Origin: Porphyrobacter sp. HT-58-2
Lineage (GTDB): Bacteria > Pseudomonadota > Alphaproteobacteria > Sphingomonadales > Sphingomonadaceae
Assembly (NCBI RefSeq): GCF_002952215.1
Contig: NZ_CP022600.1
Coordinates: 186,001 to 250,000 of the forward strand
Reading direction: 5' to 3'
DNA: 64,000 nt
Below, one piece after another: positions 46,792 to 56,583 of this stretch; position 1 is the first letter of the stretch; the number at the start of each line of letters is the position of its first letter. The notes under the pieces are model-generated. The model was not told the DNA's origin, made no database searches, and worked only from the letters and a program-made list of their open reading frames with translations. A program made the position numbers and the translations under genes.

Positions 46792-49485
46792 TCATCGCTC
46801 CTCCGGTTCGGACGAAGGGGATGCGCCGATCTGTGCGCGGACTACCTCGCCGCCGGTTACAGCGATCCGGGTGCGCAGGTCACCGGCGCGCAGGTCGTAA
46901 CAGCCGGGCAGCACCGCCGGGAAGAACGCCTGCCCGTCAAACGCCGCGCGTTCGCGCTGCACCACCTCGCCGGTCGTGCAGGAGACCAGCTCCACCACGG
47001 TTCCGGCCCCGGTATCGACCATCGCCACCACCTCGCCGCTTTCCACCAGCGGAATGTCCAGCCGCAGCGCATGCCCGGTACGCGGAGAGAGGAGGTAGCC
47101 GGGCACGGCGGGGACGATGAAGGGATCGTCGATCCCCTCGATCACCGGAACCAGCGCCACGGTCCGGTCAAGCGGCAGTTCCTCGACCAGAATCGCCCCG
47201 CCCTCGCGTTGTGACCGGCCGCGCGGATCGAGCCTGATGTCGATCCCGCCGAGCAGATCTTCGTCCGCATCCCGCCGCCCGTTGGCATTGGCATCGCGAA
47301 AACCGCGCGCCACCAGGCTGCCGCGCTGCCCGCTGGCCGCCCGCCCGAAGCGCGCGCCCCGGCCGAGCGGATCGCGATCGAATGCCAGCGACAAGGTGAC
47401 AAGCCCGCGCCAATCGCCCCGCGAATCCTCGTAGCGCAGGTCTGTTCCCAGCCGCACCCCGTTCCAGTCGCGCGTGGTGACGAAGCCCCATTGTCCCGCC
47501 CCGTTCTGCAAGTCGCGATCGGCGGTTGCGGCCAGAAACCAGTCCCCCAGCCGATAGCTCAGCTCCCCCCGCACCCGGCGCAGCTCGGTCTGTGGCATCA
47601 CGGAATAATCGACGCCCGCGCGCAGCCGTACCGGACCAAGGCTGCCCGAGACCGCGAATTGCCCGTCCAGCCGCTCGTTCCCGGCCAGACCCGGCCCGGA
47701 TCGGAAATCGCGCCAGAACAGGCTGTTCGAAACCGAAAAGCCGCCCAGCATGGCATTGGCCCTGAGATTGACCGTGCGGTCGCTGCCGCCATTGCGCAGC
47801 TCGCTGGCAATCAACCCGAGCCCGAGACCAACACCGGCCAGCCGGGCATCAAGCACCGCCTGGCTGCGCTGCGCAATGCCGCCGCGTTCGGCACCGCCGT
47901 CCTCGCTGAGAAAATCGGCGTCGAAGCGTTCGTGCGTGGCGGTCAGGCTCAGCGGCCCGATCCCGGCGGTGACACTGGCGCGCGCGGCGGTCGCGCCATC
48001 CTGCTGGGCGACCGCATCGACGCCCGCGATGACCGGGCCGACACGGGTGACCGCGCCGATCCCGAGATAGCCGAGCGCGGGGCCGCCGCCATCAACCCTG
48101 CGCCATGCGCCAAAGCCCGACAGGCCCAGGTTCGGGGTGAGGCCATAGGCCGCGCGCGCTTCCAGATAGGTGGCCGCCTGCTGGAAACCGAGTGGCGGCC
48201 CATCCCGTTCCGCCGCCGGTTCGGCCCCCGCCGCGAGGGCCGGATTGGGCTCCAGCCGCCCGTCGAAAATGCTGTAGCCCTGTTTCAGCGCGATCAGGTT
48301 GTAACGCAGTTCGCCCGGACGGATAAGATTGCTGCCGATATCGATAGCGCGGAAAATCTCCTGCCGTTCGCCCGCGGGACCATAGAGCACGATGCGGAAC
48401 CGGTTGAGCCCGAACAGCACCGGCACCTGCGGGAAGAAATAGCGGCCGTCCGCGGCAATGGTCTGGAAGCCGAGCAGCTCGCTGTCGCGGTAGAGTTCGG
48501 CCTGCCAGCCGGGGGGAGCATCGCCGATCAGGTCGCTGCGGTCGAATTCGCCCACCGCGCCGAGCGGCTCGCGCCCGATCCGCACACCGACCCCGAACAG
48601 ATTGCGCTGCAGCAGCGGGTTGGCGGGAATGGCGATATCGCCTGCCTCGACAATGGTCGCGCCCACGCCCAGCAGGTCGCCCTGTGGATCCTGCCGGGCG
48701 AGGGTCAGGCGCGCATCGATCTGGCCCTGACTGGTTCCGGCCAGCGCCAGCCGCCCGGTCGCCCACAGCAGATCGCCTTCGGCCAGCCCATTGCCCTGGA
48801 GGATCGCCCCGCCCGCCCGGTCGTCATAGGTGGCCGCGAGATTGAGCGTGACATGGGGCCAGCCGACGATTCCCCAAGATGCAGCGACCGGCACGAAACC
48901 GGTGGTATCTATGCCGCCGCCCGCGCCATTTCCGCCCCCGGCGGCGCGCTCGCGGGCGGCCAGTTCCTCGGCCGGCAACAGAAAGGGCGGGGTCAGGACC
49001 AGGGTCTGCGTGCTCTCGTCCCACCGCGCGCCCAGCGCCAGCCAGCGATCAAGCGCGGATGTGGCAATGTGAAGCGCGCCGTCGATTATCACCAGATCGC
49101 CCGGCTCAAGTGCCAGATCGCGTCCCGCGACCTGCACCCGCCCGCTGGCCGGATCGGCGAGGAGGCGCTGATTCTCCCGCAGGAACCAGCCGCTGATGCC
49201 CCCGTTCGGCGTCGGCTCCAGCCTGAGGTCAAGCGCTGCCATCAGCGGCGCAAAGGGAACCAGCAGCCCGCCGTCCGGGGTCTGGTAGAGGATCACGTCG
49301 GCCAGCAGCACCCGGCGTTCGCGCAGGCGGATTTCGGCGATCCGGAGTTCGGGTTCGGCAGCGGCCTCCACCTGCTGCACTGCCTGCGCGCGCGCTTCGA
49401 CGGCCAGCGCGGCAGCGGCAAGCACCGGGCCGACCGCAAGCACGGGCCAGCGCCCCGCGACGCGTCGCAGAAACAGGGGGAACAT
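46792..49485 (-). CDS. Usher-like outer-membrane assembly protein
   Basis: Protein of 897 residues with a signal peptide (about 1-30). An N-terminal alpha/beta region (about 45-165) resembles the copper-amine-oxidase-N type fold ('LLVPFAPLMAALDLRLEP', 'LVIIDGALHIATSALDRWLAL'). A long beta-strand-rich region follows, with usher-like 'FFPQVPVLFGLNRFRIVLYG' and 'RPGELRYNLIALKQGYSIFDG'. The C-terminal part has a Ca-binding-like 'RDANANGRRDADED' repeat and a carboxypeptidase-regulatory-like domain. Length and position (after the chaperone gene) fit the outer-membrane usher of a chaperone-usher system, though it is not a standard PapC. ATG at 49485; GTG at 49488 possible. It would dock subunit-chaperone complexes and secrete the fibre. 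Confidence 0.75.
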   Translation of the reverse strand: MFPLFLRRVAGRWPVLAVGPVLAAAALAVEARAQAVQQVEAAAEPELRIAEIRLRERRVLLADVILYQTPDGGLLVPFAPLMAALDLRLEPTPNGGISGWFLRENQRLLADPASGRVQVAGRDLALEPGDLVIIDGALHIATSALDRWLALGARWDESTQTLVLTPPFLLPAEELAARERAAGGGNGAGGGIDTTGFVPVAASWGIVGWPHVTLNLAATYDDRAGGAILQGNGLAEGDLLWATGRLALAGTSQGQIDARLTLARQDPQGDLLGVGATIVEAGDIAIPANPLLQRNLFGVGVRIGREPLGAVGEFDRSDLIGDAPPGWQAELYRDSELLGFQTIAADGRYFFPQVPVLFGLNRFRIVLYGPAGERQEIFRAIDIGSNLIRPGELRYNLIALKQGYSIFDGRLEPNPALAAGAEPAAERDGPPLGFQQAATYLEARAAYGLTPNLGLSGFGAWRRVDGGGPALGYLGIGAVTRVGPVIAGVDAVAQQDGATAARASVTAGIGPLSLTATHERFDADFLSEDGGAERGGIAQRSQAVLDARLAGVGLGLGLIASELRNGGSDRTVNLRANAMLGGFSVSNSLFWRDFRSGPGLAGNERLDGQFAVSGSLGPVRLRAGVDYSVMPQTELRRVRGELSYRLGDWFLAATADRDLQNGAGQWGFVTTRDWNGVRLGTDLRYEDSRGDWRGLVTLSLAFDRDPLGRGARFGRAASGQRGSLVARGFRDANANGRRDADEDLLGGIDIRLDPRGRSQREGGAILVEELPLDRTVALVPVIEGIDDPFIVPAVPGYLLSPRTGHALRLDIPLVESGEVVAMVDTGAGTVVELVSCTTGEVVQRERAAFDGQAFFPAVLPGCYDLRAGDLRTRIAVTGGEVVRAQIGASPSSEPEER

Positions 49486-49504
49486 CACTGCCTGAGCCTT
49501 GCAA

Positions 49505-50383
49505 TCAGGGCATGGTGAATTCGGCGAGCACGGCGCCCTTCAGCGCTCCGGCATCTTCCTCGGCATAGGTCAGCCGCACCGGAGGGTGATCGCCCTGCAA
49601 CGGCAGGCGCACGACCCGCGTGCGGCTCGGCGGCAGCACGGCCACGCCGCGCAGCAGACCGATCTCCGCGCCCGTCGCATCATAGGCGCGCAGCACGCCG
49701 TAATCGCTGCGCTGGCCGGTGCGTGCCAGCGTGACCAGCAGGGCCGGGCTTTGCGCTTCGGGATCGGGCAGGGCCGCCTCGATCGCGGTACCACCCGCAG
49801 GCTGGCCGGTGCGCAGCAGCACCGGGATGGTGATGCGATAGTCGAGGCCGACGGTGACCGCCACGGTGCGCTCCTTGCCCGGCTCTTCAGCCGCAGCGGG
49901 CTTGTCCTCGACCGGCGCGACCAGCGGGATCGAGGAAATGCTCAGGTGGCTGCGCAGCTCGCCCGGCGGCAGATCGCGCGGGGCGCGGGCGATGATCCGC
50001 ACCGACTGGCGCTGGCCGGGCTGCAACGTCACCTGCCGGGGCGAGAAGCGCAAGTACGGCGTGGCGGCCCACGGCGCGGGTTCCCCCTCGGCCAGCTGGC
50101 GGTAATTGCCCTGTTGATCCAGGCCCAACTCGACCTCGTCGATCCGATAGGTGACCGGCGCCCCGCCCGAATTGTAGAGCGTCACGCTCGCCCCGCGCCC
50201 GCCCGCATCAAGCACCACGCGGGTGGGCGAGATCGCCATGCCGCCGAACGGCGAGGCCGCATCGGCCGGCAGGGCATCGAAGGGCAGCGGGCCATCGGCA
50301 TCGGCGCCGTCCTGCGCTGCCCGCAGCGGCAAGGCCAGCATGGCGGCGGCCGCCAGCAATCCGAAGGCGAGGCGGGTCTTCAC
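49505..50383 (-). CDS. PapD-like periplasmic pilus chaperone
   Basis: Exported protein of 292 residues with a signal peptide (cleavage near 'LPLRAAQD'). The first immunoglobulin-like domain starts 'GGMAISPTRVVLDAGGRGASVTLYNSG', read in parts, with 'PRQVTLQPGQRQSVRIIARAP', the conserved strand of fimbrial chaperones. The second domain is 'ALLVTLARTGQRSDYGVLRAYD' onwards (shortened). It would cap pilin subunits by donating a strand. Overlaps the fifth subunit gene by 4 bases (ATGA) and is 19 bases ahead of the usher start. Somewhat longer than typical chaperones (about 230 residues), with an insertion 'VEDKPAAAEEPGKE' in the first domain. Confidence 0.85.
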   Translation of the reverse strand: MKTRLAFGLLAAAAMLALPLRAAQDGADADGPLPFDALPADAASPFGGMAISPTRVVLDAGGRGASVTLYNSGGAPVTYRIDEVELGLDQQGNYRQLAEGEPAPWAATPYLRFSPRQVTLQPGQRQSVRIIARAPRDLPPGELRSHLSISSIPLVAPVEDKPAAAEEPGKERTVAVTVGLDYRITIPVLLRTGQPAGGTAIEAALPDPEAQSPALLVTLARTGQRSDYGVLRAYDATGAEIGLLRGVAVLPPSRTRVVRLPLQGDHPPVRLTYAEEDAGALKGAVLAEFTMP

Positions 50384-50967
50384 GGGTAGAACGCCTCAAG
50401 GATGATCGCGCCGACCACGATCTCGCCGTCGGTCGGGCGGGCTTCGCCCTGCACCACCAGCTGGCCGCCGACACGCACCACCATCTCCTCGCCGGTACAG
50501 CGCCTGTCCCAGGCAAAGCGTTCCTGCCCGTCGACCTCGATGTAGTTCTCGAAGGTCTCGAACAGCACGGCGGTGCCCTGCACCCCCGCCGATTGCGAGC
50601 GGACAGCGATTTCCACCTGCCGGTCGGTCTCGCAGCGCAAGGTCAGCCGCGCGCGATCGGTGCGATCATCGCGATAGGCGCATCCAGCCGGGCTCGGCCC
50701 CGCCCCCTGATCGATGCTGCCTTCCACCAGCGTGCGGTTTCCGTCCGAACGCAGGTCATAGGTGCAGGTGACATTGCCCACCCGCGGGATCGCCACCTGC
50801 CCGAAATTGAGCGGCGCAATCCCCGTGAGGGTGAGCGGCTGATCGGCCTGCACGAGATTGGCGAGCGCATCCACCGTGGCACTCTCCTGCGCGGCGAGCG
50901 GGGTAGTGACACAGGCCAGGCAAGTCATCGCCGCTGCCAGCGAAAGGATTTTGCGAAAGGCGTTCAT
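50380..50967 (-). CDS. Secreted fibre subunit 5, DUF4402-like
   Basis: Exported protein of 195 residues, signal peptide ending 'PLAAQES'. Mature part follows the locus pattern: Ala-rich N-terminal strand ('ATVDALANLV'), 'LNFGQVAIP', four Cys ('VTCTYDL', 'AGCAYRD', 'LRCETD', 'RRCTGEE') and a C-terminal strand ending 'IILEAFYP'. Resembles pilin-like DUF4402 proteins. Likely a polymerising or tip subunit. Translationally coupled to the chaperone, so it may be the chaperone's main client or the fibre tip. Confidence 0.75.
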   Translation of the reverse strand: MNAFRKILSLAAAMTCLACVTTPLAAQESATVDALANLVQADQPLTLTGIAPLNFGQVAIPRVGNVTCTYDLRSDGNRTLVEGSIDQGAGPSPAGCAYRDDRTDRARLTLRCETDRQVEIAVRSQSAGVQGTAVLFETFENYIEVDGQERFAWDRRCTGEEMVVRVGGQLVVQGEARPTDGEIVVGAIILEAFYP

Positions 50968-50990
50968 TCGAAAATGCTCCGTTCAGGGTT

Positions 50991-51617
50991 TCAGTAATTC
51001 AGATCGATGCGCACCCGTCCGATGTTGAGGTTGGGCTGCGGTTGGTCGAAACCACGAACCGACGCTTCGCCCCCGAGCCGGACCCTGAAATCGCCCGGGG
51101 TGGCGGGGCAGTTGAGCGGTGCTCCGCCACCGATATTGCCGGGATCGAACGTCTGGATCGTTCCGTTGGGGGCCACAATCGACATGCCGGTCAGGCGCTC
51201 CATCCGTACACCCTGATTGGCAGGGACCTGCAGTGTGGGTTGAACCAGAACCGGGCCGGCCTGTTGGCAGCTGATGAAGAACTCGGCGGTCGTCTGCGTC
51301 CCCGAGATGCTGCATCCGTCGGGTGTCGGATTGGAAACACTGCCACCTGATGGCCCGCCGGTCTGTTCGACCCTGAGAGAGACACCAGACCCGCCGGACG
51401 GATTGACCTGATAAAGGCAGGTTGCTGCGCTTTCCCGGGGAATAGCGATCGTGCCGAAATCCAGATTCAAGGCGCCGGTAACCGACGCCGTGTCACTGGC
51501 CCTCACCACATCGGCGACGGCATCGACCTCGGCGCTGTCTTGCGCGGCGAGCGGGGCGGTGGTCAGCGCGAGGGCGAGCGCAGGGAGCATCAGCCGCGCC
51601 GTGAGACGCGCGCGCAT
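50991..51617 (-). CDS. Secreted fibre subunit 4, DUF4402-like
   Basis: Exported protein of 208 residues, signal peptide ending 'APLAAQDS'. N-terminal strand 'AEVDAVADVV', then 'LNLDFGTIAIP', four Cys ('ATCLYQV', 'DGCSIS', 'FISCQQ', 'LNCPA') and C-terminal 'GRVRIDLNY'. Its start overlaps the stop of subunit 3 by 1 base (TGATG). Confidence 0.75.
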   Translation of the reverse strand: MRARLTARLMLPALALALTTAPLAAQDSAEVDAVADVVRASDTASVTGALNLDFGTIAIPRESAATCLYQVNPSGGSGVSLRVEQTGGPSGGSVSNPTPDGCSISGTQTTAEFFISCQQAGPVLVQPTLQVPANQGVRMERLTGMSIVAPNGTIQTFDPGNIGGGAPLNCPATPGDFRVRLGGEASVRGFDQPQPNLNIGRVRIDLNY

Positions 51618-52258
51618 CAGTAGTTCACTCCGAAGCGAATGGTGCCGACGTTCAGGTTCTCCCCGGCAGCCGCATTGCGCCGCACCTCGAACTGGCCACC
51701 AAGCAAGACGTCGATGAACCCGGTATCAGGACATGTGACACTGCCATTGCGAAAGTCTCGCCGGTTCAGAAGCGATGTTTCACCATCCGCATAGAGGCCC
51801 ACCTTGCCAATCGGCGGCTCATCGAAAAAGGTCCCGGAAATGCGACCCCCGCCAGACCATTCGGCAAAATAGCTCATTTCGAAAGTAAACAAGCATCCGA
51901 TACGAAGCAGTGCCGGTGATTGATCATTGTCGACGAATTGGCAGCCAGAAGGCGAGGCGCCGGGGAAGGGGCTTCCGGTAAACTGCGGCGCTTCCAGCAC
52001 GGACCGCGAAAACCTCTGCGGTGTCTCGTTCACTTCGATAAGGTAAATACAGAATGGATTCGGACTGTCTTCGTCTAAGCGCGCGCTGTTGGGGATGGTG
52101 ACCCGGCCTAGGCGCATATCATTAAGACTGACGAGTGTGAGCGAATTGGCTGCTGGCTCGAGCGAAGCGAAGGCATCAACCTCCGCGACTTCCTGTGCCG
52201 CCAGCGATGAACTTGCCGCCATCAGGCATACAACCGCAAAAGAACGTGCAAACCTCAT
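51617..52258 (-). CDS. Secreted fibre subunit 3, DUF4402-like
   Basis: Exported protein of 213 residues, signal peptide ending 'SSLAAQEV'. Pattern: 'AEVDAFASLE', a divergent 'MRLGRVTIP' in place of L-x-F-G, four Cys ('PFCIYLI', 'SGCQFV', 'RIGCLF', 'VTCPDT') and C-terminal 'GTIRFGVNY'. The most diverged copy; base composition is slightly less GC-rich around 51.8-52.1 kb. Start at 52258 chosen for the signal peptide. Confidence 0.72.
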   Translation of the reverse strand: MRFARSFAVVCLMAASSSLAAQEVAEVDAFASLEPAANSLTLVSLNDMRLGRVTIPNSARLDEDSPNPFCIYLIEVNETPQRFSRSVLEAPQFTGSPFPGASPSGCQFVDNDQSPALLRIGCLFTFEMSYFAEWSGGGRISGTFFDEPPIGKVGLYADGETSLLNRRDFRNGSVTCPDTGFIDVLLGGQFEVRRNAAAGENLNVGTIRFGVNY

Positions 52259-52286
52259 CCCCAGTCTCCTCAACTCGCTTTCTGTT

Positions 52287-52943
52287 TCAATACATTGCGT
52301 TCATCGTGACGGTGCCGATCTGGCCGTTGAACGGGGTGTTGCTGTCGGTCAGCTCCAGCCGCCCGCCGGTGCGCAGCACGAAGGCGCCCGCCGGGCTAGT
52401 CAGCGACGAGGCACCGTCCGGGCAGGTGAACTGGTTCTGCGTGAAGGCGTTGGTGAAGACCTGACGCACCGAGTTGCTGTTGGCATTGGTCACCACCGCG
52501 CCCATGCCGGGGGCGAGGAACACCGAGCCGTCGCTCTGCCAGGTCACCTGAAACGTCACCGAGGCGGCGGGCGTACAGGCGACCACGAAGGCCGCCGGGG
52601 TGAATTCGCCCTCGGTCCGGCACCCGGACGGGGTGGGGACAGTGTTGTCGACGGCATTGCCGCCCTTGACCTCGGTCACGTCAATCCGGCCGGCCACGGT
52701 CTGCACCACCATGTCGTAACGGCACGACGCGCCCGGATTGGTGCCATTGGGCAAGGTGACCGTGCCGAATTCGAGATTAGCCAGGGGCGCGATCGCCAGT
52801 TGCAGGTCGGAACCCACGATATTGGCGCGCGCCTCAACGCTCTCGTCCGCCGACACTGCCGATTGGGCGAGCACCGGCTGAGCGGTCAGGCCCACAAGAG
52901 CGAGGGTAAGCGTAAAGGCATGGGCATGGGCGGCAATCTTCAT
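52287..52943 (-). CDS. Secreted fibre subunit 2, DUF4402-like
   Basis: Exported protein of 218 residues, signal peptide ending 'QPVLAQSA'. Pattern: 'ESVEARANIV', 'LEFGTVTLP', four Cys ('ASCRYDM', 'SGCRTEG', 'VACTPAA', 'FTCPDG') and C-terminal 'IGTVTMNAMY'. ATG at 52943 follows GGAGAC. Gap of 31 bases from subunit 1. Confidence 0.75.
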   Translation of the reverse strand: MKIAAHAHAFTLTLALVGLTAQPVLAQSAVSADESVEARANIVGSDLQLAIAPLANLEFGTVTLPNGTNPGASCRYDMVVQTVAGRIDVTEVKGGNAVDNTVPTPSGCRTEGEFTPAAFVVACTPAASVTFQVTWQSDGSVFLAPGMGAVVTNANSNSVRQVFTNAFTQNQFTCPDGASSLTSPAGAFVLRTGGRLELTDSNTPFNGQIGTVTMNAMY

Positions 52944-52974
52944 GGCAAGTCTCCGTTTTGATGGGGAAAATCCG

Positions 52975-53520
52975 TCAGTCATAGGCAACCTCCAGCCGGA
53001 TCGTACCGACCGTGCCGGTGAAGCCGTGCAGCGCTCCGGCGCGCACGGTCAGGCGCCCGGCGGCGGCGATTTCGCTGATCCCGTCGGCATCGCAGGGACG
53101 GGTCTGGAAGGCGGCCCCTGCCCCAGCGCCGTCGATGTCCATCGCAGCGGCGGGGGCGGCAAACACGGCTCCGGCCGGGGCGGCGTCGGTATGGATCACC
53201 TGAAACTGCACCAGCGCGCGTGCGGCGCAGGACAAGGTGAAGCGTGCCGGGAAGCGGTCCTGCCCCAGAAACTGGCAGATCCCGCCCGGCGCGTTGGCAC
53301 GGCCCGCAACGTCGATTTCGTAGACGCACTCACCCTGCGGCGGGATCGCCAGCGTGCCGAATTCAAGCGGCTGGGTCCCCGTGATCGCCAGCGGTTGCAG
53401 AAGGCTGGCAGAAGCATCGGTCGCAGCATCGACCGTCCCGGCCTGGCCCCATGCGGTGCTGGCGCACAGCACAGCAAGCGCCGCCGCGCCTCCCGATCCG
53501 GCCCCTGCCCGCCTGTTCAT
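52975..53520 (-). CDS. Secreted fibre subunit 1, DUF4402-like
   Basis: Exported protein of 181 residues and first gene of the operon. Signal peptide ends near 'STAWGQAG'. Pattern: 'GTVDAATDASAS', 'LEFGTLAIP', four Cys ('GECVYEI', 'GGICQFL', 'TLSCAAR', 'RPCDAD') and C-terminal 'GTIRLEVAYD'. As the first gene it may be the major subunit, but all five are of similar size. Confidence 0.75.
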   Translation of the reverse strand: MNRRAGAGSGGAAALAVLCASTAWGQAGTVDAATDASASLLQPLAITGTQPLEFGTLAIPPQGECVYEIDVAGRANAPGGICQFLGQDRFPARFTLSCAARALVQFQVIHTDAAPAGAVFAAPAAAMDIDGAGAGAAFQTRPCDADGISEIAAAGRLTVRAGALHGFTGTVGTIRLEVAYD

Positions 53521-53711: not shown

Positions 53712-54242
53712 ATGCACTCAGACAAGGACGCCATTCTCGATAGTTACAGCGAGCAGGACCAGTTCCTTGCCGCCGAGTTGGTGAACGCCTTTCACGGCGA
53801 GCTGATCGACATTGCCCGCGCGCGGCGGCGACGGGCCAAGGCTTCCGACACGCTGATGACGCTCGACGTGTTGCACGAGGCATTTCTCAAGCTCGACGGC
53901 AAGCAGGGCTTTCGCTCGCCCGGCCATTTCCTCGCGGTCGCCTCACTTGCGATGCGGCAGGTGATCGTCGATCACGCCCGGCGCAAGCTCGCCGAGAAGC
54001 GACAGGAGGCCGAAGACCAGCGGCTGGCCGGGTTTGGCGAAACGCCCGAACAGATGGTCGCGATCGGCCAGCTGCTTGGCAGTCTCGGCGCGCATAATCC
54101 GCGCTGGTTGCGGATCGTCGATGCGCGCTATTTCGCCGGGCTGACGGAGGCCGAGACCGCAGCGGTGCTCGGCATTTCGGAGCGGACGGTGCGGCGTGAC
54201 TGGCAGGATGCGCGGCGCTGGCTGGCCAAGCGGCTGGGGTAG
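53712..54242 (+). CDS. ECF sigma factor, kinase-associated type
   Basis: Sigma factor of 176 residues of the group that lacks an anti-sigma and is found next to Ser/Thr kinases (TIGR02999/ECF43-like). Region 2: 'DTLMTLDVLHEAFLKLDG' (46-63), where ordinary ECF factors have an acidic D-A-E-D patch; here Thr47 and Thr50 sit before the 'HEAF'. Region 4 helix-turn-helix 'ETAAVLGISERTVRRDW' (about 150-168). In known cases (EcfP/PknT of Vibrio, EcfK/PknS of Xanthomonas) Thr phosphorylation switches such a sigma on. It faces away from the fibre operon and converges on the kinase gene with 1 base between stops. Confidence 0.88.
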   Translation: MHSDKDAILDSYSEQDQFLAAELVNAFHGELIDIARARRRRAKASDTLMTLDVLHEAFLKLDGKQGFRSPGHFLAVASLAMRQVIVDHARRKLAEKRQEAEDQRLAGFGETPEQMVAIGQLLGSLGAHNPRWLRIVDARYFAGLTEAETAAVLGISERTVRRDWQDARRWLAKRLG

Positions 54243-54243
54243 G

Positions 54244-56583
54244 CTACATCGCGTCCAGCAGGCCCTGCGCTTCGGCGCGTATTCTTTCTCCTGCCGGGCC
54301 TGACGACTGCGCCAACAGGACCGCTTCGCGCAGTGCAGACCGAGCCTCGTCAGGCCGCGTCTCGGCGAGCGCAACCTTGCCCGAGGCAAGCTGCCAGCTC
54401 GCCAACAAGGGAGGCGGATCGCCCATAGCCGTCAGGTGCTGCCGAGCCCTGCCAAGCTTTTCCACCGCACCGGCCCGTCCTGCCTTGGCCAGCGCCTCCG
54501 CATGGCCGTTCAGCACCGCGACATGCAGCGCGCTGGCAGGGCCTGCAAATTCGAGGCTCATCGCTTCAGCACGCGCCAGAGGCTCCAGAGCGGCGCCCGC
54601 CTTGTCCACGCCGAGCAGCGCCTTGCCGTAATTCGACAGCAAGGCCGCCGTCGCCGCCGAAGGGCCGAACAGCTGATCGCGCAGCGCCACGGCGCGGGCA
54701 AAGCTGGCCACGGCCGCCTCGTGCTTGTTCTGGAGATATTGCACGCTGGCGACGTTGTTGAGGGTGTTGAGCGCGTCGAAACTGCCGGTCAGCCCGGTCG
54801 CCTGCCACACCCGGTCGGCTTCCAGAAACGCCGCTTCGGCCTCGTCGAGGCGGCCCAGCGACACCAGCGCCGTACCAATATTGTTGGCAAACACCCCGGC
54901 GCGCTGATTGTCCCGGCCATATTCGCGGACATGGTCTGCCAGCGTCCGGCGCAAGAGCGCCACGGCGCCCTCCGGATCCTCCGCGCGCATCACCTGCGCT
55001 TCAAGCAGGCGGCTGTCGCGCAGGCGAATGGCCCAGCGCCCCGGATCGGCTTTCCAGAACGCCTGCGCCTGCCCCAGCAAGGCCTCGGCCTTGTCGGCTG
55101 CGCCCTGCCGCATATGGGCCTGCGCCGCATTGTAGCGGGCCTGAGCGAGAATTTCGGGATCGATCACCGCCGCCTGTCCTAGCAGCAGGTCAAAGGTCGC
55201 CAGCGCGCCGACATCGTCGGACAGGTAGAACTGCAATTCGCCGAGCGCCTGAAGCACGGCGGCGAATTGCGCGGGTGCCTTGCGGAACCGCGCCCCGATC
55301 ACCTCCGCTGCCTGCGACACGCCCGAAGCAGTTGCTGCACCGTCTTCGCCCTCGCCCGTTTCGGCGAGCAGGAAATAGAGCGATTCGCGGATCGTGTCGC
55401 TGCGCTCCTCCTCGGCCAGCGCGCGGTTGCGGGCATTGATCGCCTGCTGCGTCTGCAACAGGCTTACCCCCAGTCCGCCCACCAGCGCCGCCAGCGCGAC
55501 CGCGCTCGCGGCCGAGGCCAGCCAGTGCTTCTTGAGGAACACGCGGGCGCGATAGAGGCTCCCACCGCCGCGGGCCATGACCGGGCGGGTTTCCAGCCAA
55601 TTGAGCAAATCCTCCCCCAGTGCATCGACCGAGGCATAGCGGTTGGCTGGGTCAAAGGCTGTGGCCCGGGCGATGATTGCCGCAAGATCGGGATTGCCCA
55701 GCGCCTGTGCAGCAATCACTACCGATCCATCGGCCTGACGTTCAGGCAGTCGCCCGATCAGCAGCAGGTGCGCCAGCATACCAACCTGAAAAATGTCCGT
55801 CGCAACGCTCACAGCTTCGCCTTCGAGCTGTTCGGGCGCGGCCGTCACCAGGGTCAGCGCCCGCCCTTGCCGGTGCGTGTCTGCCATGGCCGCTTCCGGG
55901 ATCAGTGCCGCTATCCCGAAGTCGATCAGCCGCAACTGGCCATCGCTGTTGACCAGCACATTGGCGCTCTTGATATCGAGGTGCAGCACCAGCCGGGCAT
56001 GGGCATGGGCGAGCGCATCGCAAAGGTCGACGAGCAGCCTTACCCGCGTCCTGGGATCACACCCACGACCAGCGCACCAGTCTGCGATCGGAGCGCCTTC
56101 GACGAATTCGACGACCATGAAAGGCCGGCCCGCCGTGTCTTCGCCGCCATCGATGATGCGGGCAATGTTGGGGTGATCGAGCCGGGCCAGCCGCTGCCGC
56201 TCGTCCCTGAAGCGGTCCATCACCATCGCAGCCGGGCTGGCGACCAGCTTCATGGCCGCAATCTGGTCATAGACCCCGTCATCACGCCGGACGAGCCAGA
56301 CCTGCCCCATCCCGCCAGACCCGATGCGCTCAGCCAGCTTCCACGCCCCGACCCGCTCAGGCGGTGGCCCGCCCGGGCCTTCGCCGGGATCGGGATCGGC
56401 CTCGGGCGCACGGGTCGACATGAAGCCGGTCAGATCGCCGGTCACCGCAAGGTGCGCCGACAGCGCCATCGCTCCGGCAGGATCGGTATCGGCGAGAGAG
56501 GCCAGATCAGGCGAGGGATCACCCCGGCCGCTCGCGTCTCCGGCGACAATGGCCCTGACGACCGCCCCCCAATCGACCTTCAT
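54244..56583 (-). CDS. Membrane Ser/Thr protein kinase with TPR-rich C-terminus
   Basis: Hanks-type kinase of 779 residues. Kinase domain about 80-340: glycine loop 'IGSGGMGQVWLV', Lys112 in 'AAMKLV', catalytic loop 'HLDIKSANVL' (201-210), 'DFG' (221-223) and 'APE' (249-251). The usual Arg of H-R-D is Leu (non-RD). One membrane helix about 353-376, then about 400 residues of TPR-like helices ('GTALVSLGRLDEAEAAFLEA', 'ARYNAAQAHMRQGAADKAEA'), probably periplasmic and sensory. Convergent with the ECF sigma gene, its likely substrate. Same domain order as PknS-type kinases. Confidence 0.9.
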   Translation of the reverse strand: MKVDWGAVVRAIVAGDASGRGDPSPDLASLADTDPAGAMALSAHLAVTGDLTGFMSTRAPEADPDPGEGPGGPPPERVGAWKLAERIGSGGMGQVWLVRRDDGVYDQIAAMKLVASPAAMVMDRFRDERQRLARLDHPNIARIIDGGEDTAGRPFMVVEFVEGAPIADWCAGRGCDPRTRVRLLVDLCDALAHAHARLVLHLDIKSANVLVNSDGQLRLIDFGIAALIPEAAMADTHRQGRALTLVTAAPEQLEGEAVSVATDIFQVGMLAHLLLIGRLPERQADGSVVIAAQALGNPDLAAIIARATAFDPANRYASVDALGEDLLNWLETRPVMARGGGSLYRARVFLKKHWLASAASAVALAALVGGLGVSLLQTQQAINARNRALAEEERSDTIRESLYFLLAETGEGEDGAATASGVSQAAEVIGARFRKAPAQFAAVLQALGELQFYLSDDVGALATFDLLLGQAAVIDPEILAQARYNAAQAHMRQGAADKAEALLGQAQAFWKADPGRWAIRLRDSRLLEAQVMRAEDPEGAVALLRRTLADHVREYGRDNQRAGVFANNIGTALVSLGRLDEAEAAFLEADRVWQATGLTGSFDALNTLNNVASVQYLQNKHEAAVASFARAVALRDQLFGPSAATAALLSNYGKALLGVDKAGAALEPLARAEAMSLEFAGPASALHVAVLNGHAEALAKAGRAGAVEKLGRARQHLTAMGDPPPLLASWQLASGKVALAETRPDEARSALREAVLLAQSSGPAGERIRAEAQGLLDAM

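Follow-up and report, generated by a model that had tools for sequence, protein, structure and literature searches.

Three classes of chaperone-usher pili, classical, alternative and archaic, are available for comparison with the locus described here. In the archaic (sigma) Csu pili of Acinetobacter, the N-terminal strand Gd of one subunit occupies the groove of the subunit before it, and CsuE is the two-domain tip adhesin (PMC9452303). Arg89 of CsuC and EcpB, a residue of strand F in the first chaperone domain, is common to archaic and alternative chaperones (PMC4654587). Here, we analysed 64,000 nucleotides from Porphyrobacter sp. HT-58-2 (assembly GCF_002952215.1, contig NZ_CP022600.1, positions 186,001 to 250,000), hereafter called the window, whose minus strand carries an operon for five small exported subunits (S1-S5), a PapD-like chaperone and a divergent outer-membrane usher (Table 1). 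We consider it highly likely that this operon is a chaperone-usher system of an undescribed kind, in which DUF4402 subunits are polymerised by donor-strand exchange into a secreted fibre. A literature search of titles and abstracts, which covered few subscription papers or preprints, gave no description of the system among the matches listed, and with the same coverage none was found for DUF4402. To our knowledge, Pfam DUF4402 (PF14352) is a family without an assigned function.

The list of open reading frames bears out the seven tightly packed minus-strand genes at positions 46792-53520 that the initial annotation of this DNA had proposed, with overlaps of up to 14 bases and gaps of at most 23 bases between them. 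Signal peptides had been claimed for the subunits, and by eye each of the seven products begins with a signal-peptide-like N terminus. The usher length of 897 residues given at that time is the count from the next ATG codon, and 898 residues are obtained from the GTG codon. The G+C content is 67.6% for the operon and 64.4% for the window, and the idea that base composition marks the operon as foreign was rejected.

Table 1. Positions in the window of the operon genes, their predicted domains and donor strands, and the neighbouring regulatory genes
Feature	Position	Strand	Basis
S1, exported DUF4402 subunit, 181 residues	52975..53520	-	Pfam DUF4402, 27.1 bits (cut-off 25.2)
S1 predicted donor strand (N-terminal extension)	53398..53430	-	column pattern, 40 subunits
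S2, exported four-cysteine DUF4402-like subunit, 233 residues from TTG	52287..52988	-	family profile
S2 predicted donor strand	52815..52847	-	column pattern, 40 subunits
S3, exported subunit of the same four-cysteine DUF4402-like family, 218 residues	51617..52273	-	family profile
S3 predicted donor strand	52157..52189	-	column pattern, 40 subunits
S4, exported subunit of the same four-cysteine DUF4402-like family, 208 residues	50991..51617	-	family profile
S4 predicted donor strand	51504..51536	-	column pattern, 40 subunits
S5, exported DUF4402 subunit, 195 residues, adjoins chaperone gene	50380..50967	-	Pfam DUF4402, 26.5 bits (cut-off 25.2)
S5 predicted donor strand	50851..50883	-	column pattern, 40 subunits
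Periplasmic PapD-like chaperone, 292 residues	49505..50383	-	Pfam PapD_N, profile comparison
Divergent outer-membrane usher, 898 residues from GTG	46792..49488	-	profile comparison, trees
Usher N-terminal domain, residues 40-205	48874..49371	-	hhalign
Usher plug domain, residues 322-400	48289..48525	-	hhalign E 1.1e-6, 3.5e-5
Usher barrel after plug, residues 401-735	47284..48288	-	hhalign E 7.8e-9, 1.8e-7 (tested 400-735)
Usher C-terminal domains, residues 736-890	46819..47283	-	hhalign E 1.7e-8, 1.8e-6
Extracytoplasmic function (ECF) sigma factor (PF07638), divergent from the operon	53712..54242	+	Pfam
Ser/Thr kinase (PF00069), converging on sigma factor gene	54244..56583	-	Pfam

Usher and chaperone

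The window usher has no match above the cut-off in Pfam or NCBIfam. A profile built from this protein and 41 relatives was compared with two alignments of Pfam-recognised ushers from the same order, the Sphingomonadales, and hhalign matched both; 651 columns were aligned in the first case (single-comparison E-value 7.4e-21) and 706 in the second (6.1e-23). As controls, a two-sequence profile of TonB receptors reached 0.22, and the best of 15 column shuffles per target reached 0.28 and 0.51. Because the plug, the barrel and the C-terminal parts also match separately (Table 1) with null controls, we conclude that the window protein is, judged by its sequence, a very divergent usher, the predicted barrel of which is supported by homology. 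In known ushers, the barrel has 24 strands and holds a plug.

Trees were made in two quick runs, each assessed by the Shimodaira-Hasegawa approximate likelihood ratio test (SH-aLRT) alone; in both, the program flagged long branches and an uneven composition. In the first, with 56 rows, 35 ushers of the DUF4402 type were split by a branch with an SH-aLRT of 100 from 21 Pfam-recognised ushers, and the ushers of many-subunit loci formed a clade with the same value. The split, now 33 against 23 rows, was found again at an SH-aLRT of 100 when EcpC and FimD were added and two long rows, the ushers of loci L050 and L063 (L numbers are our handles for loci), were dropped. Against one of the two Pfam-recognised usher profiles, which was the one used for these comparisons, FimD matched with 7e-25 but reached only 0.068 against the window usher family, and EcpC gave about 6e-4 against each.

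A protein search with the usher, in which the best 7999 candidates were scored, gave at least 35 relatives, and of the eleven that carry a name nine are called hypothetical protein, one carboxypeptidase-like and one OmpA-like. A second protein search scored the best 8000 candidates, and over both searches hypothetical protein is the usual name where the source gives one. In relatives, the C-terminal domains are carboxypeptidase-regulatory or SdrD-like. For the N-terminal domain, two of the relatives, P0027 and P0029, score above the PF07833 cut-off. A C-terminal OmpA domain was noticed in relative P0024. Two ushers are unusually long, namely that of L037 (4823-8764) with 1313 residues, including a Pro/Ala-rich stretch of about 450 residues ahead of the usher part, and that of L038 with 1285 residues. 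Two others are apparently broken, one by a TAG codon (L048, 7145-9919) and one, in Blastomonas, reduced to a 98-residue remnant (L062, 8917-9213). A 3603-residue usher in L049 (5838-16649) was discarded because a long run of N creates this open frame artificially.

The PapD-like nature of the chaperone, also part of the initial annotation, agrees with its score of 27.0 bits against the PapD_N cut-off of 23 bits. The chaperone profile matched a set of 34 chaperones, encoded at loci with SCPU or with a Pfam-recognised usher, with an E-value of 7.3e-18 over 206 columns (best of 20 shuffles 0.18). Arg144 of the window chaperone aligns with residue 109 of the EcpB precursor, which is mature Arg89 if the signal peptide has 20 residues, and the column is kept in at least 90% of 23 chaperone rows. 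Single EcpB and FimC sequences matched the chaperone profile weakly (0.0014 and 0.0053), and in PDB sequence searches the chaperone alone found nothing and its profile found FimC at 0.07. An arginine in strand A1 also occurs in L136 and was therefore dropped as a distinguishing mark of the window chaperone. Taken together, the controlled profile comparisons of usher and chaperone support the chaperone-usher reading with which the analysis began.

Subunits and predicted donor strand

The DUF4402 likeness proposed for all five subunits stands for S1 and S5 in Pfam itself; S2, S3 and S4 individually have no Pfam match and are linked to DUF4402 only via the family profile, and none of the five matches SCPU in Pfam. 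We aligned 40 subunits from the window and L054-L059, chosen by position, start and similarity, with two later-found subunits in L056 and L057 left out. The resulting profile matched canonical DUF4402 with an E-value of 4.5e-12 over 141 columns (best of 40 shuffles 0.054), the DUF4402 profile consisting of 30 rows from DUF4402-matching loci and 18 rows chosen by their place beside the chaperone gene. All 40 subunits share four invariant cysteine residues and a tyrosine residue two positions after the first of them, and 33 have exactly four cysteines after residue 22, which suggests two disulphides per subunit, whereas no cysteine is present in 28 of the 48 canonical DUF4402 rows. A Tyr or Phe residue is found within the last three positions of 38 of the 40 subunits. 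The closest counterparts of S1 are those of L054 (69% identity), L055 (49%), L058 (44%) and L059 (38%). For S2, the ATG at 52943 fits the signal peptide better than the TTG and is possibly the true start.

Directly after the signal peptide, ten columns of the 40-subunit alignment alternate between hydrophobic and polar residues, with hydrophobic fractions of.03,.72,.15,.93,.03, 1.0,.35,.95,.12 and.97. This is the best-alternating ten-column segment of the alignment, and its alternation was reached by a fraction of 0.003 of 1000 column permutations. A strongly alternating segment lies at the same N-terminal place in SCPU pilins, for which we used 24 rows from 30 loci (one was not found and five exceeded 260 residues). 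Because the alternating stretch sits where SCPU pilins keep their known donor strand, it supports, without proving, assembly by donor-strand exchange. The donor-strand coordinates in Table 1 were derived by hand from the alignment.

Distribution and gene order

Of the 296 genomes searched from the order, 89 have the usher, 89 have DUF4402 and 87 have both (Fisher test 4e-70, with relatedness ignored). The discordant genomes are G039 and G133 with the usher only and G083 and G220 with DUF4402 only, the matches in G039 and G083 being weak. The usher is therefore carried by about 30% of the sampled genomes, more than carry PF00577 at the same E-value (58/296). PF00577 and the usher share 20 genomes (p 0.43), DUF4402 is found together with PF00577 no more often than expected by chance in the 296 genomes, and SCPU is present in 40 of them. 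The curated cut-off is passed in 44 of the 58 PF00577 genomes and in 88 of the 89 DUF4402 genomes. A search across 398 genomes of the phylum gave usher-profile matches in 43, which in 13 genomes span more than 700 of the 895 positions; the other matches are short, lie mostly in the C-terminal domain and were not counted. Six of the 13, one from the same class and five from other classes, have a DUF4402-like gene, a chaperone gene and an usher gene in this order on one strand. The relatives with a named source belong to Porphyrobacter, Erythrobacter, Sphingomonas, Ponticaulis, another Hyphomonadaceae genome, two further Alphaproteobacteria and two Pseudoalteromonas.

A survey of gene order in the Sphingomonadales, which the initial annotation had put forward as a check, was extended here to 35 loci: 19 from the order (from 18 of the 89 genomes, picked for spread), ten of the eleven named relatives and the six phylum loci, with L035 (Pfam-type usher) and L062 (fragment) left out. 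The chaperone gene lies directly upstream of the usher gene in all 35, and a DUF4402-like gene lies upstream on the same strand in 32, in a set from which the search models were partly built. The six phylum loci, L186-L191, were not used for the chaperone model, and all six have the chaperone and a subunit gene upstream. As the same gene order recurs in other genomes, the operon is more than a chance arrangement. The number of five subunits holds for the window but not in general, as the loci have between none and nine upstream subunit genes on the same strand. The recognised subunits span 157-272 residues including signal peptides, with some doubtful starts. Three loci are without a recognised same-strand upstream subunit gene. 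In L037, the upstream DUF4402 genes are on the opposite strand; in both Pseudoalteromonas loci, a 169-residue protein with a signal-peptide-like start occupies the place of the subunit, and Pfam found nothing in the L063 copy of this protein. In L064, the chaperone gene is in two pieces with unread bases, and in L189 (11533-12039) and L190 (3356-3865) an extra DUF4402-like gene follows the usher gene in addition to the one upstream.

The genome of strain HT-58-2 itself holds a second copy with three genes, for DUF4402, chaperone and usher (L034, 6696-10753, at 3.056 Mb). It is accompanied by an 835-residue gene and, on the other strand, a gene that by eye resembles one for a response regulator, with similar neighbours in L052 and L053. 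A separate locus (L035, 5180-11515, at 1.847 Mb) encodes a protein that passes the SCPU cut-off and a 1083-residue usher that passes the PF00577 cut-off and falls among the Pfam-recognised ushers in the trees. The version with one recognised subunit gene adjoins parA- and gid-like genes, identified by eye, in seven of the 19 loci of the order (L040, L042, L043, L044, L046, L047 and L048). The operon in the window seems accessory, since none of 23 other members of the genus carries a close relative of the usher (a match of 29-32% identity in six, none in 17).

Relationship to archaic pili

The system could be a drifted archaic (sigma) pilus, with DUF4402 as a divergent SCPU domain and no need for a separate class. 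The closeness of the chaperone profiles (7e-18), the presence of the hallmark arginine of non-classical chaperones, the N-terminal alternation at the same place in both kinds of subunit and a match of DUF4402 to SCPU pilins in their C-terminal strands (4.9e-5, best shuffle 0.015) speak for such an origin. We nevertheless regard it as possible but unlikely: the ushers stay on their own side of the SH-aLRT 100 branch, also with EcpC and FimD added, FimD recognises the Pfam-type profile but hardly the window usher family, and DUF4402 and PF00577 occur together no more often than by chance.

Several results also weigh against our own reading of the operon as a donor-strand-exchange system of a new kind. 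The N-terminal domain of known ushers docks the chaperone-subunit complex, and this domain of the window family matched Pfam-recognised ushers partially, with E-values of 0.004-0.014. A PDB sequence search with the usher profile gave no barrel relative and found SdrD-like and similar domains at the C terminus. The DUF4402 match to SCPU pilins mentioned above is confined to the last 35 columns, and a direct comparison of the subunit profile with SCPU pilins was unconvincing (0.013, best of 40 shuffles 0.032). The subunits match neither FimA (0.21) nor EcpA, and a PDB sequence search with them gave no relative, the hits being mostly antibody light chains with E-values of at least 0.029. In SCPU pilins, the N-terminal segment ranks fifth of the six segments listed, and in canonical DUF4402 proteins it lies outside the six best-alternating segments, which sit near the C terminus.

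Neighbouring kinase and sigma factor genes

Next to the operon lie genes for an ECF sigma factor and a Ser/Thr kinase. The sigma factor probably starts at the ATG at 53712, in a frame that is open from 53451; the kinase has one hydrophobic candidate membrane span (residues 358-376) and C-terminal TPR repeats. The ECF43 members EcfP and EcfK have a phosphorylated threonine residue in region 2.2, within a motif that is given for 88% of the group (PMC13147305, PMC8999054). By reading, the corresponding motif is MTLD in the window, VTLE in L055 and NTIS in L058, and the DAED motif of region 2.2 is absent, as in ECF43 members. An adjacent Hanks-type kinase gene, a further ECF43 feature, is present as the PF00069 kinase gene on the other strand. 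The published phospho-threonine position is Leu in the window and Leu or Ile across the three sequences, all of which keep the adjacent, preceding threonine. Because Leu replaces the phosphorylated residue, we do not claim ECF43 membership.

Of the six named many-subunit loci, four have a kinase ortholog beside the operon (L055, L057, L058 and L059) and three a sigma-factor ortholog (L055, L058 and L059), the sequence of the fourth, L057, starting at the kinase gene. Among the 31 loci searched, neither ortholog was found in L054, which is on a short contig, in L056 or in 25 others, and this, together with the Leu at the phospho-acceptor position, would fit two unrelated neighbours of an operon with another regulator. 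We find this explanation rather doubtful, as the genes recur in differing orientations and the kinase-linked loci span Erythrobacter, Ponticaulis and another Hyphomonadaceae genome. The operon consists of seven genes as first described, and the kinase and the sigma factor next door may also belong to the system.

Proposed mechanism and significance

We propose that the seven-gene set very probably assembles a fibre on the cell surface, using the chaperone-usher pathway. The five subunits would be exported and then bound by the chaperone in the periplasm, which would deliver them to the divergent usher. The usher would polymerise the subunits, with the N-terminal strand of each filling the groove of the one before, and secrete the resulting fibre, which may serve in adhesion or biofilm formation. 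Our data show the gene content, the homology of usher, chaperone and subunits, their co-occurrence and the synteny, whereas fibre formation is an inference, as it was in the initial annotation. In part of the many-subunit branch, the neighbouring kinase, acting through its ECF sigma factor, probably switches the operon on. The presence of several short subunit genes, each with a donor-strand-like start, suggests that the fibre is mixed or staged and has no classical tip adhesin of two domains; such an adhesin is not evident because the recognised subunits are short. An alternative, that the usher brings DUF4402 proteins to the surface singly or as a coat instead of a polymer, is improbable. 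In its favour, many loci have a single recognised subunit gene and the fibre is a prediction from genes; against it, the donor-strand-like pattern runs across the 40 subunits as a group, with at least 0.93 in four of the five hydrophobic columns, and both chaperone and usher are retained as in polymerising systems.

The operon and its relatives appear to represent a widespread, previously undescribed form of the chaperone-usher pathway. Because related gene sets occur in many other bacteria, DUF4402 gains a likely and testable function. The range of sequences able to work as an usher is widened, and the differing N-terminal domain offers a natural test of chaperone-subunit docking. If the kinase link is true, a surface fibre would be run by a kinase-controlled ECF sigma factor. 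Whether all this adds up to a fourth class beside the classical, alternative and archaic ones seems to us evenly poised. Such a class would be marked by DUF4402 subunits and by an usher clade of its own in which the docking domain differs; a gene for a tip adhesin would be lacking, and one branch would have a dedicated switch made up of a kinase and a sigma factor. The class would be common in one alphaproteobacterial order and would also occur in other classes of the phylum. There is a fair chance that the DUF4402-type system deserves a class of its own.

Comparison with known systems

The classical type 1 pili (FimC, FimD and FimA) are alike in general layout, and the arginine of the first strand of FimC aligns with one in the first strand of the window chaperone; they differ in that FimD (0.068) and FimA (0.21) do not match the window families. 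In alternative (ECP) pili, the EcpB arginine taken for Arg89 aligns with Arg144 of the window chaperone, but EcpC is no closer to the window ushers than to Pfam-recognised ones and EcpA matches neither subunit profile. The ECF43 pairs EcfP-PknT and EcfK-PknS resemble the neighbouring genes in having an ECF sigma factor without the DAED motif beside a membrane Ser/Thr kinase, and differ at the published phospho-threonine position. To Pfam DUF4402, the subunits are tied by S1 and S5 and by the family profile, and they are set apart by their four cysteines.

The archaic (sigma) pili, such as Csu, differ in having SCPU subunits, with two cysteines in 19 of 24 rows compared with four invariant ones here, and PF00577 ushers, whereas the window usher has no PF00577 match, belongs to a separate clade and has an N-terminal domain that is not clearly alike. 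Judged by their length of 157-272 residues, the recognised subunits are all too short to be clear tip adhesins with two domains, as CsuE is. The archaic pili and the operon are alike in a PapD-like chaperone with the strand F arginine, in an usher with plug, barrel and C-terminal domains, and in small subunits with an N-terminal alternating stretch and an aromatic C terminus, which is found in 38 of the 40 window-type subunits and in all 24 SCPU rows.

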